Below are positions 1,112 through 12,418 of a DNA stretch of 64,000 nucleotides, in pieces (position 1 is the first letter of the stretch; each line of letters opens with the position of its first letter). The translations under genes were made by a program, and so were the position numbers. The notes under the pieces are model-generated. The model had not been told where the DNA came from. It was given only the letters and a program-made list of their open reading frames with translations, and did not search any database. This DNA comes from Anaerolinea sp. (lineage in GTDB: Bacteria > Chloroflexota > Anaerolineae > Promineifilales > Promineifilaceae), in NCBI GenBank assembly GCA_014879875.1, contig JACSRF010000180.1:1-64000 (forward strand). The letters run 5' to 3'.

Positions 1112-1214
1112 GCCCAACGCCCGGCATCACCCGCCGTGCATTCAACCAAACAACCACGGCGTCTTGCGGATGAAGGCTGCGCTATTCGCGGTCGAGTGCA
1201 TGCCGTTGTTAAGT
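1112..1214 (-). other. integron attC-like recombination site
   Basis: Minus strand: core ACTTAAC (RYYYAAC) ... GTTGGGC (GTTRRRY); arms GGCATGCAC / GTGATGCC pair with one extrahelical base; inner stem CGCCGTG/CACGGCG. Confidence 0.75.
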
Positions 1215-1243
1215 TGCGGCCAAGCCTAAAAGGAATTGCTGCG

Positions 1244-2056
1244 TTACCGCGATTCGTTCGAGGTGACACCAAGCATCCGATTAATGAGCCACTGTCCACC
1301 AGATGTCTGATCCAATGTAGAAAAAACCTTTTCGATAGAGTGATAAGTAATGCCCGCAGGACATTCCGCCGCAGACCTCGCGGGGCCAAAGAAATGAAGA
1401 ACTCGATTGTTCCGAGCAAATGACAGTAGCCTCGCAGCCTTTGTTCCAACGAGTCTCTCGGATACTGTCGTTTGGGCCAATAGCTCATGACCATCTGTGG
1501 TTAATCCTACGTGATCAATATCTTCAAAAGCCCTCCCACCGCTCCAAACGCATACGCATAAGCGGGTGGCAATCAGGTAATTTGTTACCAGCCACTCTAC
1601 ATCGAGATGATGAAGCGACCAAACATCGCGGGGCAAGGCGCTACCCTGCACCAACGCTGCAAGCCTACCCTTTGCCCGATTGCTACAACGTTGGACGGTA
1701 CACTGACGCGGAGCAAGATTGCCAAGAAAGCTTTCTGAAGAATCCACGATTTGAGCCTTGGCTAGCGGCAGGCACAGCAAACCTTTGACGCGCGTGAATT
1801 CCGCCCCAGCCTTAACATAACCAATAAGCCGATCAGATGGATTAAGTGTTGCTCCCTTGTAAGCGGCGATCACCGCAGCGCCATGCTGCCGCATCGTGTG
1901 AAACAAGGTTACGTCAGTGTAGCCGCGCCCGGTATATTCATTCGGATTTGGCCCTTTGCGCCCCCAGTCCAGCGCAATTAGCCGTCGGCGGAATAATTCA
2001 GCGACTTCTGCGGTATCGGCTAGGTTATGAGTAATCGTGACTTCGAGTAATTCCAT
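1244..2056 (-). CDS. hypothetical protein (270 aa), candidate gene cassette between two attC-like sites
   Basis: Longest ORF between attC-like sites, start 17 nt from the upstream site; overlapping + ORFs judged spurious. Confidence 0.55.
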   Translation of the reverse strand: MELLEVTITHNLADTAEVAELFRRRLIALDWGRKGPNPNEYTGRGYTDVTLFHTMRQHGAAVIAAYKGATLNPSDRLIGYVKAGAEFTRVKGLLCLPLAKAQIVDSSESFLGNLAPRQCTVQRCSNRAKGRLAALVQGSALPRDVWSLHHLDVEWLVTNYLIATRLCVCVWSGGRAFEDIDHVGLTTDGHELLAQTTVSERLVGTKAARLLSFARNNRVLHFFGPARSAAECPAGITYHSIEKVFSTLDQTSGGQWLINRMLGVTSNESR

Positions 2057-2072
2057 TTGCTTACGATATAGT

Positions 2073-2155
2073 GAGCAACGGCGCGGCGGATAAGCCGCGA
2101 GCCGCCCAGACCTGCGGTCTGGAAGCGGCTTGTCGGCTTCATCCGCTTGTTAGAC
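2073..2155 (-). other. integron attC-like recombination site
   Basis: Minus strand GTCTAACAAGCGGATGAAGCCGACAAGCCGC...GCGGCTTATCCGC...GTTGC; arms GCGGATgAAGCCG/CGGCTTATCCGC with one extrahelical base; nested stem GCCGC-CCAGACC/GGTCTGG-aa-GCGGC; very like the classical aadA-type attC. Confidence 0.8.
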
Positions 2156-2516
2156 CGCCTCGATCACAGCGAGCAAGGCCTGACAAGTGGACGCAGTCCG
2201 CCGCTGCGGGGCTGGCAAGACACCAAACCCATGACTTCTCTGGCAAAGCCAGAAACCCTTATGCTACAAAGCAGCGGTCGGCGTGCAAGCTATTGTTGAG
2301 CGGGTCTTTCCTTGTCCTTTGATGTTATCAGAATGTACCTCAGCAGCGGCAGCCGTTTGACTAAGCAATCTTCCAACACCCCGTGACTTGGAAAAAACTA
2401 TAATGTTAGTGTGCTGCACGTGTCCCTACAAATCATCCTAGTAGTCCAACAATGTTGTTTTGACGGATGAATACGAGAGGAGATATGCGCCAAAACTTGT
2501 TTGATAGACTACTAGC

Positions 2517-3608: not shown

Positions 3609-3708
3609 TTCAGAGTCCCCTTCAGGCTATAAGTACCCAAGCAATTGTTTTTTGGTGTTCCTACACGAGGACAATACCTGATTACTTTTGCTCAGGTACT
3701 TATATGTG

Positions 3709-5004
3709 CTATTTTCTAAAATTCGCGCTTATTCGGGGGAAATATTTATCGAATAAGCTAGTAAAAATATTAATCTGGTCAATCAGCACTTCTTTATCAC
3801 GAATTGCATCTTGTTCATCATAATCTGTGGATTGATTTCTAAGGTTATTGATATGAAAGTCGTTTATTACATACAATTTCTGGTAAATGGTATTTAACCG
3901 GTCCATTAAAGGATGTGGTATATCAACTTCATTTTGATTTTTTCGAAAGATGTCCCAAGCATCAGTCCGCAGATAATTTAAGGTGGTGTATATATCTTCT
4001 AACCAGATTTTGTTAGTCTCCGCCTCGAAACGAAGCGCATATAGCAAATAATTGCTTTCATTTTCTTCTTCATCGTAATCTAATGAATCAAGAATAACTT
4101 GAAGCTTTGTGTCAAAAATATCTATAAGTTCTTGGAGCATCTCAGCAAGCTCATACTTATGAGTCTGAGCTACATCAGACTTATATTCGGGATCATGATT
4201 GCGACATTTTAACACATGACTATTAAGTTGATGTAGCCGATTGTACGACCTGATTACCTTATCAAAAATAACAAAAGGGAGATAGGCAATATTGCCACTT
4301 TTAACAAACTCAACATATCGAATGTCGCTTAGAAACCCCATTTTTGCAATAGGTTCATCGAGGATGTGCAGATTAGTTGCAATTTCAATTCGTAATGATT
4401 TAGCATAAGCAAACAGCTTTTCTTGATTAACGATTGGTTGGGCTGATTTTTTAGACTTTAGCGTAGGGGTCAAGTACTCCAGCATATTTGACCATTGGAT
4501 AGCATTGCAAGCAAGTTTGTACGCAAATTCAATTGACTTCCCTGCACCCAAAGCGTCATAGAAAGCAACGGAAAACTCAATGGCTGCGGTATCTCCTATG
4601 GCTTTCTTCATTCCTATCACGTAGGGTATATGTTCTGCCACTGCTTCAGCCTGAACTTCCGAATAGCAGGCGTTTAGAATCACACATTCTAGTTTATCGG
4701 CAAACAACTCGAAGAACTCCGCCAGCGTATCAGCATTTACAAGTTTTGCCTGCCCTGTTTCATCTTCAAATGCTATGCCCTCTTCACCAGAACCATGCCC
4801 ACAAAAGTGAACAATATTCGGCTTGAAATCCAACATGGCTCTGCGGACATCTACAGGGCGGGCTGCCCACTTCTGTTTCAGTATGAAATCATCACGTCTT
4901 TGCGCTCTCTCTAAACCGTTATCAATTTCTCGAACTTCTTGATCGAGACGAAGTAAGGGCGTATTTTTGGGATTTGCAGCTAAAACCAAAATTGTTTTAG
5001 TCAT
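3709..5004 (-). CDS. CHAT-domain (caspase-like) protein with uncharacterised C-terminal helical region
   Basis: IVHFCGHGSGEEGIAFED and ECVILNACYSEVQAEAVAEHIPYVIGM: catalytic His (HFCGHG) and Cys (LNACYS) motifs of CHAT proteases. Confidence 0.85.
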   Translation of the reverse strand: MTKTILVLAANPKNTPLLRLDQEVREIDNGLERAQRRDDFILKQKWAARPVDVRRAMLDFKPNIVHFCGHGSGEEGIAFEDETGQAKLVNADTLAEFFELFADKLECVILNACYSEVQAEAVAEHIPYVIGMKKAIGDTAAIEFSVAFYDALGAGKSIEFAYKLACNAIQWSNMLEYLTPTLKSKKSAQPIVNQEKLFAYAKSLRIEIATNLHILDEPIAKMGFLSDIRYVEFVKSGNIAYLPFVIFDKVIRSYNRLHQLNSHVLKCRNHDPEYKSDVAQTHKYELAEMLQELIDIFDTKLQVILDSLDYDEEENESNYLLYALRFEAETNKIWLEDIYTTLNYLRTDAWDIFRKNQNEVDIPHPLMDRLNTIYQKLYVINDFHINNLRNQSTDYDEQDAIRDKEVLIDQINIFTSLFDKYFPRISANFRK

Positions 5005-5188: not shown

Positions 5189-5208
5189 GCCTAACTATTT
5201 AGTTAGGC
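5189..5208. repeat. hairpin GCCTAACT-ATTT-AGTTAGGC, possible degenerate attC core or terminator
   Basis: 8-bp perfect inverted repeat with 4-nt loop; half-sites match RYYYAAC/GTTRRRY. Confidence 0.5.
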
Positions 5209-5429: not shown

Positions 5430-6695
5430 TCAATGATGCAGCGCCCGCGCGGCCACAAAGGAAAGCCCCTTTTCTGTGAGCGCCCAGGCCGTGGCATTGG
5501 TCGCGTCTACTTTGTCCTGGAAGTTCTGCGCCAGGTGGTCCCAGTCACCGGCGGCAATCACCTCGCTCTTGTCGCGGAAATAGTCGAGGATGTCCGAGGG
5601 ATGCGGCCGTTGTTCATCAAGTTCTGGGTCGCCCCCTTCATGCTTGGCGGAGATATTCGCCACGTGATCGGCCAGCTGCACCAACTCGTCGCGCCGGTTA
5701 TACGGCTGGCGCACAATACTCTTAAACGTCTCCGTGATGTGATGCTCAAAGCGCACGACATCCTCAAAGCCCAACGCCTGGCGGAACTGCGCCGTGATCT
5801 CCATGCTCTCGTTGTTCACCGAATTGCTCCAGTTAAAGCCAATCAGCGGCGACGTGCCATCATCACGCGAAAACAGCTTGGCCCCCAGCAGCGTCCACAG
5901 CGCCGCATACGGGTTATCGTTGCCCATAAACACGGAGATCTTAAACTCAACGTCCACCCCCAGGCGGTGCAGCAAATACCCCAACAAGACCGTGCCTGGG
6001 TTGACATTGAGGACTTGCTGCACGCCGTAATGGGTGTAGTAATACAAAAATTCATCCAGCCATTTCAGCGCGTGCGTGTTCGGCTGGCCGACGCCGCCAA
6101 AATAGCCGGTAATCGTCGCCGGGCCGCCCAGGTGGATGTTAGAACCGTCCGTCCCTTTGGTGTCCAACGTCTCCACGTAGCTGGCGCCGATGATTTGCAT
6201 CGCCGCGGCCACGGCCACCAGGTCGCCATCCGCTTCCTGCTCTTTCATTTTGCGCACACGGATAAAACGGCCGGGCAGCAAAGTGCGGTTCTCAATGGCG
6301 CGGCGCACGGCCGTTATCAGCCAGGGGAAATATTGCAGCGAACTCACTTCCAGGGTCACGGCAAAATCATCGGCAAAGGTCATGGCGTCGGCGCGGTCGC
6401 CCAACACACGCCGCCGATAATCCGCCTCGCTGATGAACAGGCGGTCGTCCCTGGCTTGCATGAGCCATTGTAAATCGGGCAGATATTGGGGGCAGACGGT
6501 TTCAACTTGTTGTAACAATGTATCAAGCTGGCGCGCCGCCTGCGCCTTTTCGTTAATCTCTTCCGGCGTGCCATATTTAGCGACGACGGCCAAAAAATCA
6601 TCCACCACGCGCATGTCGGGGTGCAGCAGCAGCGCGTTGATGGCGTCTAAACGGTCGTTGGGGATCTTCAAGCGTTCACGCAGGTCAGTGGTCAT
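5430..6695 (-). CDS. conserved hypothetical protein (421 aa)
   Basis: Long intact ORF directly upstream-oriented with panB; family not recognised. Confidence 0.7.
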   Translation of the reverse strand: MTTDLRERLKIPNDRLDAINALLLHPDMRVVDDFLAVVAKYGTPEEINEKAQAARQLDTLLQQVETVCPQYLPDLQWLMQARDDRLFISEADYRRRVLGDRADAMTFADDFAVTLEVSSLQYFPWLITAVRRAIENRTLLPGRFIRVRKMKEQEADGDLVAVAAAMQIIGASYVETLDTKGTDGSNIHLGGPATITGYFGGVGQPNTHALKWLDEFLYYYTHYGVQQVLNVNPGTVLLGYLLHRLGVDVEFKISVFMGNDNPYAALWTLLGAKLFSRDDGTSPLIGFNWSNSVNNESMEITAQFRQALGFEDVVRFEHHITETFKSIVRQPYNRRDELVQLADHVANISAKHEGGDPELDEQRPHPSDILDYFRDKSEVIAAGDWDHLAQNFQDKVDATNATAWALTEKGLSFVAARALHH

Positions 6696-6753
6696 GGGAA
6701 ATGCTCCTTCGAAGATGTGGGCGAACTGGAAAGTTCGCCCTACAGATGTGGGT

Positions 6754-7608
6754 TTACCCTAACAACTTCAACAATTCAGCGTATTCTTCTTCTTTCATGC
6801 CAAAGTAGTTTTTCGGTTCGGGGAATTGCTTGCCCTGCACTTCGGCCACGTACTGCTGCAAACCGTTGAGAATGACTTCACCGGCGTTGCCATAGACCTT
6901 GGCCATGCGCGGGGTGAATTTGGGGTAGAGGCCAAACAGGTCATGGTAAATGAGCAGCTGCCCATGCGCATCCGGGCCGGAGCCGAGGCTCATGATGATG
7001 CAGTTTTCGGCGCGGTCGGTGATGATCTGGCACACGCGGTCGGGCACGAGTTCGAGCAGCACGCCAACGGCCCCCGCCTCCTCCAGGATTTTGGCGTCTT
7101 CGATGATCTTTTGCGCTTGCAAGGCAGACTTGCCTTGCAGCCGAAAGCCGCCGAGGGCGCTGGCGCTTTGCGGGGTCAATCCCAGGTGCCCAAAAGCAGG
7201 AATGCCGGCCGCGGAGATAGCGGCGATGCGTTCAGCCATTTCGCGCCCCCCTTCCAACTTGATGGCGTCACACCCCGCTTCGGCCATAAAGCGACCGGCA
7301 TTGAGCACGGCCGTTTCATTGCTCGGTTGGTAGCTCATGTACGGCATATCGCCAATCAAGAACACGTGCGGCGCGCCCCGACGCACGGCCTGGGTGTGGC
7401 GAATCATGTCATTCATCGTCACCGGCAGCGTGCTGTCATAGCCAAGCATCGTCATGCCCAGGCTGTCGCCTACCAGGATCATATCAATACCCGCCTGCTC
7501 CTGGAAGTAGGCGGTGGGATAGTCATAGCAGGTCAGCCAGGTGATGGGATCCCCTTTGGCTACTTTGTCAAAGAGAACGGGTAAGGTAACTTTCTTGCGC
7601 TCAGACAT
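6754..7608 (-). CDS. panB: 3-methyl-2-oxobutanoate hydroxymethyltransferase
   Basis: KVTLPVLFDKVAKGDPITWLTCYDYPTA...DMILVGDSLGMTMLGYDSTLPVTMNDM...MPYMSY...AIKLEGG; start moved to MSERKK at 7608. Confidence 0.95.
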   Translation of the reverse strand: MSERKKVTLPVLFDKVAKGDPITWLTCYDYPTAYFQEQAGIDMILVGDSLGMTMLGYDSTLPVTMNDMIRHTQAVRRGAPHVFLIGDMPYMSYQPSNETAVLNAGRFMAEAGCDAIKLEGGREMAERIAAISAAGIPAFGHLGLTPQSASALGGFRLQGKSALQAQKIIEDAKILEEAGAVGVLLELVPDRVCQIITDRAENCIIMSLGSGPDAHGQLLIYHDLFGLYPKFTPRMAKVYGNAGEVILNGLQQYVAEVQGKQFPEPKNYFGMKEEEYAELLKLLG

Positions 7609-7822
7609 TGGTTCAGCTCCTTGAGTGTAGGATAAAAAAGTGGGAAAAAGCTTTGTCAAAGAAACGATCTTTAACGCTATTAATAGCTTACGCCATCACC
7701 GGATAGAATACAAGATCGGAGTCTGGCGAAAATGAGTAACCGCAGGCCGTTTGCCCTTGTCTGCTGCTGGACGGCTGCTGTTCCCTTGCCTTTTCATGCC
7801 GGGTATTATATAACTCGCGCCC

Positions 7823-9362: not shown

Positions 9363-10643
9363 ATGCCGCCAACGTCTCGTTTGCCCAGACAACTGACGCG
9401 CAATACGGCAATTAAATTAGCCTCCGAGTTCATAGGACGGGCGGCCTCTTTTGTCCTGGTTATTTTGGCGGCGCGGCAGTTAGGGGAAGCCGGGTTCGGC
9501 GTTTACAACTACGGGTTGGCGCTCGGCTTTGTGCTGGCGCAGTTGGCCGACATGGGCTTGCAGATCGTTGTCTCCCGCGAGGTTGCCGTTCATGGGCAGG
9601 GGGCGCAGCCATTGGCGCGAATGGCCTTCCATTTGAAAGTGGTTCTCAGCCTCGCGGTTCTCGGTTTGTTGGGCGTCATCGCCCTGACCCAGCCAACGCC
9701 GGCCCGCCCGGCGATACTCTTGTTGGGGTTGATGCAGTTGAGCCAAACCTACCTGGAGTTTATGGCCTATATCTATCGTGGACAGCAGCGGTTATGGTCG
9801 GAGGCGTGGTTATTAGGCGGGGCGCGGGTGACGACGGCCGTTATCGGCGCCATCATCCTCTGGCAAGGGGGCGATGTGTGGCAGTTGGCCGCGGGCAGCC
9901 TGTTAACGGTGGCCGCGGCGGCCGCAGTAGGGGCCGGTCGCTTGCGGCAGGAGGGCTGGCTGCGCGAGTTGGGCGCTGGTGCAGAGGGCGGCGTGGCGGC
10001 TTATTGGTTCTTACTGCGTCAGGCTGCGCCGTTAGGGGTGGCGATTTTTCTATCCATCGCTTATACGCGGTCGGCCGTTTTGCTGCTACAGTTCCGGTTG
10101 GGGGAAACGGCCGTTGCCCATTTCAGCGCCGCCGCCCGCCTGGTAGAACCGACCCAAATCTTACCGGCGTCGTTGCTGGCCGCCGTCTTCCCGGCCATCT
10201 CCCTGGCTGTTGCTCAAAATCCGCGTCAAGCTAAATTATTAGGTGCGCAGGTTTCACTCTTGCTAGGCGGCTGTGGTCTGGTTCTGGCCGGCTTCTTTTG
10301 GCTGACGGCCGGTTGGCTGGCGCCCTGGCTGTATGGCGCGGCATATGCGCCCGCCGTCCCTGTGTTACAACTGCTCGGCCTGACGATCATTCCCACCTTT
10401 ATCAATTACAGCCTGACCCATTATTTGATCGCCCGCCGGCAGCAGTTGTATTTGGGGTTGTTTACGGCCGTTATGTTAGGCTTGCATCTGCTAATCAGTT
10501 GGGTTTTAATTGCCCGCCTGGGCGTCATTGGCCCGGCTATCTCCATGCTAATCAGTGAATGCTTCTTATTGTGCGCCTGTCTATCATTGCTAGGACACAA
10601 AATGTTAGGACACAAAATGAACGCGAATACAACCAACAAATGA
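9363..10643 (+). CDS. polysaccharide flippase (Wzx/MATE-like)
   Basis: Multi-TM protein, N-term RNTAIKLASEFIGRAASFVLVILAARQLGEAGFGVYNYGLALG. Confidence 0.85.
   Translation: MPPTSRLPRQLTRNTAIKLASEFIGRAASFVLVILAARQLGEAGFGVYNYGLALGFVLAQLADMGLQIVVSREVAVHGQGAQPLARMAFHLKVVLSLAVLGLLGVIALTQPTPARPAILLLGLMQLSQTYLEFMAYIYRGQQRLWSEAWLLGGARVTTAVIGAIILWQGGDVWQLAAGSLLTVAAAAAVGAGRLRQEGWLRELGAGAEGGVAAYWFLLRQAAPLGVAIFLSIAYTRSAVLLLQFRLGETAVAHFSAAARLVEPTQILPASLLAAVFPAISLAVAQNPRQAKLLGAQVSLLLGGCGLVLAGFFWLTAGWLAPWLYGAAYAPAVPVLQLLGLTIIPTFINYSLTHYLIARRQQLYLGLFTAVMLGLHLLISWVLIARLGVIGPAISMLISECFLLCACLSLLGHKMLGHKMNANTTNK
10591..10620 (+). repeat. 15-bp tandem duplication TAGGACACAAAATG(T/A)
   Basis: Encodes LGHKM-LGHKM at the flippase C-terminus. 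Confidence 0.85.
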
Positions 10644-12418
10644 AATTGGACACAGGTTTTCGCAAATTCCAGCAAATTTTTAGCGGCCATTATCCGTATT
10701 CATCCATGCTCATCCGCGTCCCCTTCATACTCCTCATGGCGTTGGCAGTTAGCTTGCCTTTTGAGCTGATCGCGCCTTTGTGGACAATAGGGCCATTGTC
10801 TATTACCAACGTGGAACTGGCGTTGTTTCTGACGCTGGCATTCGCGGCGGCTTCCCTCCTGCAATCTCGCGGCAAATGGGCATGGCCCGACCGTTACTGG
10901 CTGTGGCTGCTGCCGTTTGGGGGTGGACTGCTGCTCTCTGCGCTGCTGGCTCCCCAGTTGCAAGCAAACGCCCTCAAAGCCTCCTTGCGCCTGATCTTTG
11001 GCATCCTGCTGGCCCTGGCTGCCTTGCAAATTATGCGCCGACCGGGCGACGGCCGTGCCGTCAGCGTCGCTTTATTAGCCGGCGGGCTGGCTGCCGCCTT
11101 GATCGGTTGGTGGGAAATCAGCCAATCAGAACTGGCCTGGATGAGCCTGTTTCGTACCCACATCACCCGCGTCGGCTCCATTTTGCGACTGACCGGCGCC
11201 TTTGATTACGCCAACCAGGCCGCGATATTTATGGAAGCGACATTGCCTTTTTTGGTAACCATCACCTGGTCCGTTAGCGCGCAAAGCATTCCTCCCCGTT
11301 TTAAGATTCCGCTGCTGGCCTTGTTGTTCTCGTTAACCTTGTTCTATTTGCAAGCCATCATCCTGACTTTAAGCCGGGCAGGCGCGGCCACAGTTATTGT
11401 CGTTTGCCTGGTGTTGACCATTTTGTTGGCGGTTCGGCAGACGGCTGCTAACCGGAAGATGGCTGCATGGTGGTTAGGGGTGGCGATGGTAACGGCCGTT
11501 CTCATCGTTGCCAATGCCTTACTAAGCGCCCAGATTCGTCTCCGGCTGCAAGGCGGCAACGTAGACGACTGGTATCGCGCCCAAATCATCGCGCCGCCAA
11601 CGCTGGAAATGGTGGCCGGGGCGACCGTTGACGCCGCGGTGGTTGTCACCAACGAAGGCGCGCTTGCCTGGCGTAGCCAGGGGGAAAATCCGATCTCATT
11701 GGGCGCGCGTTTGCTCAATGAAGAAGGAACACAGGCATACAGCGAACTGCGGTGGCCGTTTCCCGGCAGCGTCAACCCCCAAGAAACAGTACACATGATC
11801 GCGCCGCTCACCGCTCCCCTCACCCCTGGCATCTACGAACTACGGTGGGATGTGGTGCATGAAAACGTCACCTGGTTCGGCTCTAAAAGCGGTCTGTATG
11901 CGACCAGCCTGGTCACTGTACTTCCCGGCGCCGGGCCGATAGATCGTCCCCAACCAGAAACCTTCGGCATGAGCGAACAGGCCGCCTGGGATTACGTTGG
12001 CCCCGTACCTGGCCGGGCGACTTTATGGTCGTTAGCGTTACAAATGATCGGAGAACGGCCGTTACTCGGCATCGGCATGGATAACTTCCGTCTCACTTAT
12101 GGCGAACGGCTGGGAAACCCCAATTACGATAATACGGTGCATACCAATAATTTTTACTTAGAAATCATTGTTGCTATGGGCATCATTGGGGCATTTCCAT
12201 TTATAGTATGGGCGGGCGCTTTACTGCTCGATGTGCTGCGAACCTTGCGCCGACCTGATCAAACCATGTGGTCAGCGGCATTCGCTGCCGGACTGCTGAC
12301 CTTTTTCATTCACGGTTTTTTCGATTTTTTTCTTTTATTCAACGCCACCGGCTTATTATTTTGGCTGCTAACAGCCCTGTGGGTAAACGAGAAAAAAAAC
12401 CATGCGCATCGGATTTGA
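10640..12418 (+). CDS. O-antigen ligase/polymerase-like membrane protein with embedded beta-sandwich domain
   Basis: Multi-TM; LGIGMDNFRLTYGERLGNPNYDNTVHTNNFYLEIIVAMGIIGAFPF; ATGA overlap with upstream flippase stop supports start at 10640. Confidence 0.85.
   Translation: MKLDTGFRKFQQIFSGHYPYSSMLIRVPFILLMALAVSLPFELIAPLWTIGPLSITNVELALFLTLAFAAASLLQSRGKWAWPDRYWLWLLPFGGGLLLSALLAPQLQANALKASLRLIFGILLALAALQIMRRPGDGRAVSVALLAGGLAAALIGWWEISQSELAWMSLFRTHITRVGSILRLTGAFDYANQAAIFMEATLPFLVTITWSVSAQSIPPRFKIPLLALLFSLTLFYLQAIILTLSRAGAATVIVVCLVLTILLAVRQTAANRKMAAWWLGVAMVTAVLIVANALLSAQIRLRLQGGNVDDWYRAQIIAPPTLEMVAGATVDAAVVVTNEGALAWRSQGENPISLGARLLNEEGTQAYSELRWPFPGSVNPQETVHMIAPLTAPLTPGIYELRWDVVHENVTWFGSKSGLYATSLVTVLPGAGPIDRPQPETFGMSEQAAWDYVGPVPGRATLWSLALQMIGERPLLGIGMDNFRLTYGERLGNPNYDNTVHTNNFYLEIIVAMGIIGAFPFIVWAGALLLDVLRTLRRPDQTMWSAAFAAGLLTFFIHGFFDFFLLFNATGLLFWLLTALWVNEKKNHAHRI

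Follow-up and report, generated by a model that had tools for sequence, protein, structure and literature searches.

A probable integrase-less cassette array bounded by two attC sites in a Chloroflexota draft genome

Whether two attC-like sites close to a contig edge mark an integron cassette array, and what kind of array this would be with no integrase beside it, is the question raised by this locus. The window (the whole stretch of DNA analyzed, 64,000 nucleotides from Anaerolinea sp., GCA_014879875.1, contig JACSRF010000180.1) forms the first part of a 74,957-bp contig in a draft assembly of 6.9 Mb (680 contigs, about 94% complete). Our data indicate, with a probability of roughly 0.8, that the locus is a CALIN, i.e., a short integrase-less cassette array, on a chromosome or large replicon of a Chloroflexota bacterium. 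Such elements are already well known, and Chloroflexota is already among the phyla with integrons (PMC8618304).

The attC covariance model used here (R1; 19 pairs) was built from 33 well-aligned attC sites, all from outside the window, taken from class 1 integron cassettes on annotated plasmids and from Chloroflexota arrays adjoining full-length integron integrases. Searched against both strands of the whole 64-kb window with filters off, it recovered site 2 with 39.1 bits (E = 7.1e-8) and site 1 with 36.9 bits (E = 2.6e-7), both on the minus strand, these E-values being rough because of a shortened calibration. The third-ranked match in the 64 kb attained only 14.5 bits, a large gap below the two sites; it lies at 5189-5208, consists of a bare R-box palindrome (two R boxes only) and was left uncounted. 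The first-pass annotation, made from the sequence alone, had claimed two attC-like sites bracketing a gene at 1112-2155 and had named a covariance model as a suitable check; both sites are confirmed as genuine attC, in the places where it had put them (Table 1).

Table 1. Positions of the features at the cassette locus and of further attC-like sites in the same genome
Feature	Position	Strand	Remarks
Insertion-sequence end at contig edge	1-68		identical 67-69 nt at six other contig ends
Next cassette ORF, 358 aa	9-1085	-	start 26 nt past site 1; 3' end cut
attC site 1	1112-1214	-	103 nt; R'' ACTTAAC, R' GTTGGGC; extra G in L''
Predicted mobile cassette	1118-2078	-	about 961 bp; from the TT in R' of site 2 up to the G in R' of site 1
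Cassette ORF, 270 aa	1244-2056	-	start 16 nt past site 2; end 29 nt before site 1
attC site 2	2073-2155	-	83 nt; R'' GTCTAAC, R' GTTGCTC; extra base in L''
Conserved tail 5' of site 2	2156-2202	-	no recognizable ORF; aligned in G301:C63 and G318:C153
MITE-like repeat	2438-2515		about 78 bp; ends CTAGTAGT...ACTACTAG; right border of cassette region
attC-like site (L088)	C643:7173-7232		58 bits (R1); 6 nt past stop of UDP-glycosyltransferase-like gene, same strand
attC-like site (L089)	C458:10394-10452		46.3 bits (R1); 19 nt past stop of PLP-dependent enzyme ORF, same strand
attC-like site (L090)	C381:14275-14396		28.5 bits (R1); 23 nt past stop of FGE-sulfatase-like gene, same strand
attC-like site (L091)	C424:10317-10433		26.3 bits (R1); within about 8 nt of ORF stop, same strand
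attC-like site (L091)	C424:11089-11157		18.8 bits (R1)

The minus-strand reading of site 2 is GTCTAAC...AAGCGGATGAAGCCGAC...GCGGCTTATCCGCC...GTTGCTC and that of site 1 is ACTTAAC...CGGCATGCACTCGAC...GGGTGATGCCGGGC...GTTGGGC, and in both the L'' arm is one base longer than the L' arm (GCGGATGAAGCCG vs GCGGATAAGCCG; GGCATGCAC vs GGCATCAC). The paired L boxes with one extrahelical base on the same side, described previously, were thus seen in the minus-strand L'' of both sites, and this position of the extra base means that the orientation of the sites matches that of the minus-strand ORFs. In agreement with the earlier statement on orientation, both sites read toward minus-strand ORFs (1244-2056 and 9-1085); the ORF starts, put at 17 and ~27 nt after the sites, were measured at 16 nt (2056) and 26 nt (1085), within one base. 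The RYYYAAC/GTTRRRY cores attributed to both sites hold for the two R'' boxes and for R' of site 1, but R' of site 2 departs from RRRY, with its GTT kept. The layout of the R and L boxes is the same as in class 1 cassettes (aadA1, aadA2), and GTCTAACAA...AAGCCGAC is common to the aadA attC and the left arm of site 2; unlike class 1 cassettes, the window sites have a longer central part, no plasmid nucleotide match and no known resistance gene. The proposed closeness of site 2 to the aadA-type attC stands mainly for its left arm. A blastn search of the plasmid collection returned zero matches for either site.

As single-stranded DNA, site 2 was far more stable than its shuffles on both strands (z, -5.1 plus vs -4.1 minus). 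The plus strand of the window corresponds to the cassette bottom strand, the predicted recombining strand, and site 2 folds best there, with bulged T2133 and C2140 on the 3' arm. Bottom-strand attC recombination is a mechanism established for the integron family (for instance, PMC2727003). The fold of site 1 equaled that of its shuffles (z about 0; -0.2), which we ascribe to its long loop, and its R'' pairs only in part with TTGCTC, the first bases of the cassette to which it belongs. The absence of a significant whole-site fold at site 1 and this partial complementarity were both counted against the CALIN reading, as was the presence of just two attC sites.

A comparison with relatives supported the reading of site 2 as a cassette boundary. 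The congener is G301, an integron-carrying genome whose integrase is that of the uncultured Anaerolineae MAG CALEAD010000032.1 (100% identity, 318 residues), which places the host of the window in Chloroflexota. Its contig C63 contains a site 2 homologue whose arms are identical (79% across 126 nt as a whole), with an acyl-CoA-binding-protein gene (ACBP) on the preceding side, followed by a DNA-methyltransferase-like gene in place of the 270-aa ORF. The two genomes are alike through the right arm as far as CGCCGTT and diverge from the next base on, directly past the GTT of site 2, in line with a cassette boundary; this break in homology is as expected from cassette insertion at G/TT. Recurrence of the sites beside other cassettes in relatives, on which the first-pass annotation had staked its claim, was thus observed for site 2, the only site for which the exchange of neighbors at G/TT was compared. 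Among the Chloroflexota integrons with a full IntI (such as the G150 arrays L048 and L056), the intI-adjacent array L056 has an attC at 10887-10945 with almost the same arms as site 1, and at least one R1 match at E 0.001 was found in 36 of 59 related genomes. An origin of the sites as chance palindromes, as terminators or as members of some other repeat family is very improbable: such a reading would fit the unremarkable fold of site 1, but it is opposed by the R1 E-values (7e-8 and 3e-7), the shared orientation, the extra base on the same side, the cassette-like spacing and the site 2 homologue that precedes another gene with the junction at GTT. Furthermore, the attC sites are not present as dispersed copies, and no Rfam family attained its gathering threshold in a scan of the window.

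The limits of the predicted mobile cassette would be set by the canonical G/TT crossover points of both sites. The only relative found for its 270-aa ORF was a hypothetical protein of a Vibrio harveyi plasmid (23.5% over 60%), with none in 98 related genomes, genome contigs or viral contigs, and an AlphaFold model built without relatives was unusable (mean pLDDT, 36). A weak relative of the 358-aa ORF was found on a Streptomyces plasmid (27% across residues 123-326), and neither cassette ORF had a convincing match in PDB, PADLOC, NCBIfam or Pfam. The DFRNILVHY stretch near the C-terminus of the cut 358-aa ORF may resemble HEPN RNase motifs. The G+C content was 35% in the region of the 358-aa ORF, 52% in the 270-aa ORF and about 55% in the remaining window.

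The surroundings of the array are marked by repeats. The insertion-sequence end at the contig edge recurs at six other contig ends, each continuing into different DNA, and similar insertion-sequence copies occur in the congener, one of them adjoining a transposase-like ORF. The last 20 or so codons of the 358-aa ORF come from this insertion-sequence end, which indicates a broken cassette gene. On the right, the MITE-like repeat has many copies genome-wide, including a complete related copy in contig C156. The conserved tail was compared among the window (2156-2202), L192 (about 10012-10058) and L196 (1-62); it is preceded by differing upstream sequences in the two related contigs, and in G318 it stands between two attC sites. 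This ORF-less stretch of 46 nt, with palindromic pieces, thus lies just upstream of an attC in three genomes of the family. Further along the window, genes at 5436-7630 are common to the window and contig C1 of the congener, and left of 5436 nothing was found in the congener except site 2 with its tail (C63) and the insertion-sequence end. This part of the window also contains a 68-bp repeat with AAGTACC/GGTACTT ends (3635-3702), which recurs at other contig ends, and a minus-strand gene for a CHAT-domain (caspase-like) protein (3709-5004; PADLOC 'chat', E = 4e-23). Insertion at a tRNA gene was considered and rejected, the window having no tRNA.

CALIN are recognized by two or more attC sites spaced by less than 4 kb (PMC9024848, PMC9668308), and the two sites of the window, 858 nt apart in the same orientation, agree with this in spacing and number. 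Compared with the IntegronFinder definition of a CALIN, the locus shares the two attC sites and their ORF-matched orientation, and no integrase lies nearby in the assembled sequence; it differs in its borders, being cut at one end by an insertion sequence and at the other by a MITE-like repeat, in a draft assembly with the left side unseen. The first-pass annotation had found no integrase in the window and had offered two readings, a CALIN or an array that continues beyond the left edge. With the integron integrase profile, no full-length integron integrase was detected in the window or in any contig of the assembly, and the 60 kb rightward of the array contain none; the left flank of the cluster lies outside the assembled contig. 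Both readings are supported by the sites and by this lack of a full-length intI, and both remain, as the first base of the window is also the end of the contig and falls within an insertion sequence, beyond which more cassettes or an intI could lie.

The assembly nevertheless holds a trace of an integrase, set against the missing full-length gene. On contig C415 (103-295; L070), a frameshifted integron integrase relic was found, in which the codons at 103-231 match IntI residues 28-70 (43 codons, 58-70% identity) up to a stop, past which an FRHSFATHL box follows out of frame; it reads as an integrase gene with most of its sequence deleted. Across the family, an integrase above the curated cut-off (full-length IntI) was present in 19 of 52 genomes, and that of the congener is intact, with the stop at its own end; the window genome differs from G301 and G150 in having no intact intI. 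The main rival to the CALIN reading is a complete sedentary integron that lacks intI and attI solely because the assembly breaks at repeats, which we consider unlikely. A window starting at a contig end, in an assembly as fragmented and incomplete as this one, would suit such a split, as would the position of family integrases, often no more than a few hundred bases from a contig end, and draft genomes are known to inflate CALIN counts (PMC9024848). Against this, the assembly yields a decayed relic instead of a full-length integrase, and the 60 kb on the right side are free of one; a complete integron (intI, an adjacent attI and an array) is absent from the assembly, in which the C415 relic alone was found. 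The CALIN reading is favored by the R1 score gap, the other attC sites behind ORFs in this genome and the exchange at GTT in the congener, together with the family distribution of IntI, intact in the congener and left as a relic alone here. On this evidence, the array is best read as degraded or stranded cassettes of a known kind and not as a new system.

How the CALIN arose is a separate matter. Most likely it stems from an integron whose integrase has decayed or survives as a relic at another place. Outside the window, at least four other attC-like sites occur in the genome, each just 3' of an ORF (Table 1). When filters were off, the long C381 site was unreported and the first C424 site scored 19.1 vs 26.3 bits, so these two are held less firmly. 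Contig C458 contains more weak sites upstream of the one listed. Such scattered single or paired attC loci, seen here and in relatives, could instead point to cassettes inserted at secondary sites by an integrase acting in trans, with the array never joined to an intI at this place, an origin of the same CALIN that leaves the identity of the attC sites untouched and that we regard as possible, if doubtful. It is named as one CALIN origin (PMC8618304), and in the congener the attC comes after ordinary genes (ACBP, selD-like), the stretch examined containing no intI; these data fit the decay of a former integron equally well, and the integrase relic favors decay. A broader version, in which cassettes in this Anaerolineae-type family have repeatedly entered scattered chromosomal sites one at a time, making most attC loci solitary by origin and not the remains of one integron, with the conserved ORF-less tail involved in their spread, seems improbable.

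Under the preferred reading of a CALIN left by integrase decay, each attC would be the 3' recombination site of its cassette, and its bottom strand (window plus) would form a hairpin, with the IntI tyrosine recombinase reading its R and L boxes and its extrahelical bases. Cutting by IntI at G/TT, established for the family and presumed here, would have allowed cassettes to be inserted or excised. The 270-aa ORF and site 1 would form one cassette, the 358-aa ORF would represent the next, broken by the insertion sequence, and site 2 would belong to a preceding cassette of which only the tail survives. Such an array would have arisen by IntI recombination in an ancestor with a working integrase, and it would now be static unless an integrase were provided in trans; CALIN cassettes can still be excised or captured by IntI from elsewhere (PMC9668308). 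The two cassette genes, neither in a known family, are candidates for study. With cassettes, an integrase relic and intact integrases all in one Chloroflexota family, the loss of the integrase and the stranding of cassettes become traceable between close relatives.
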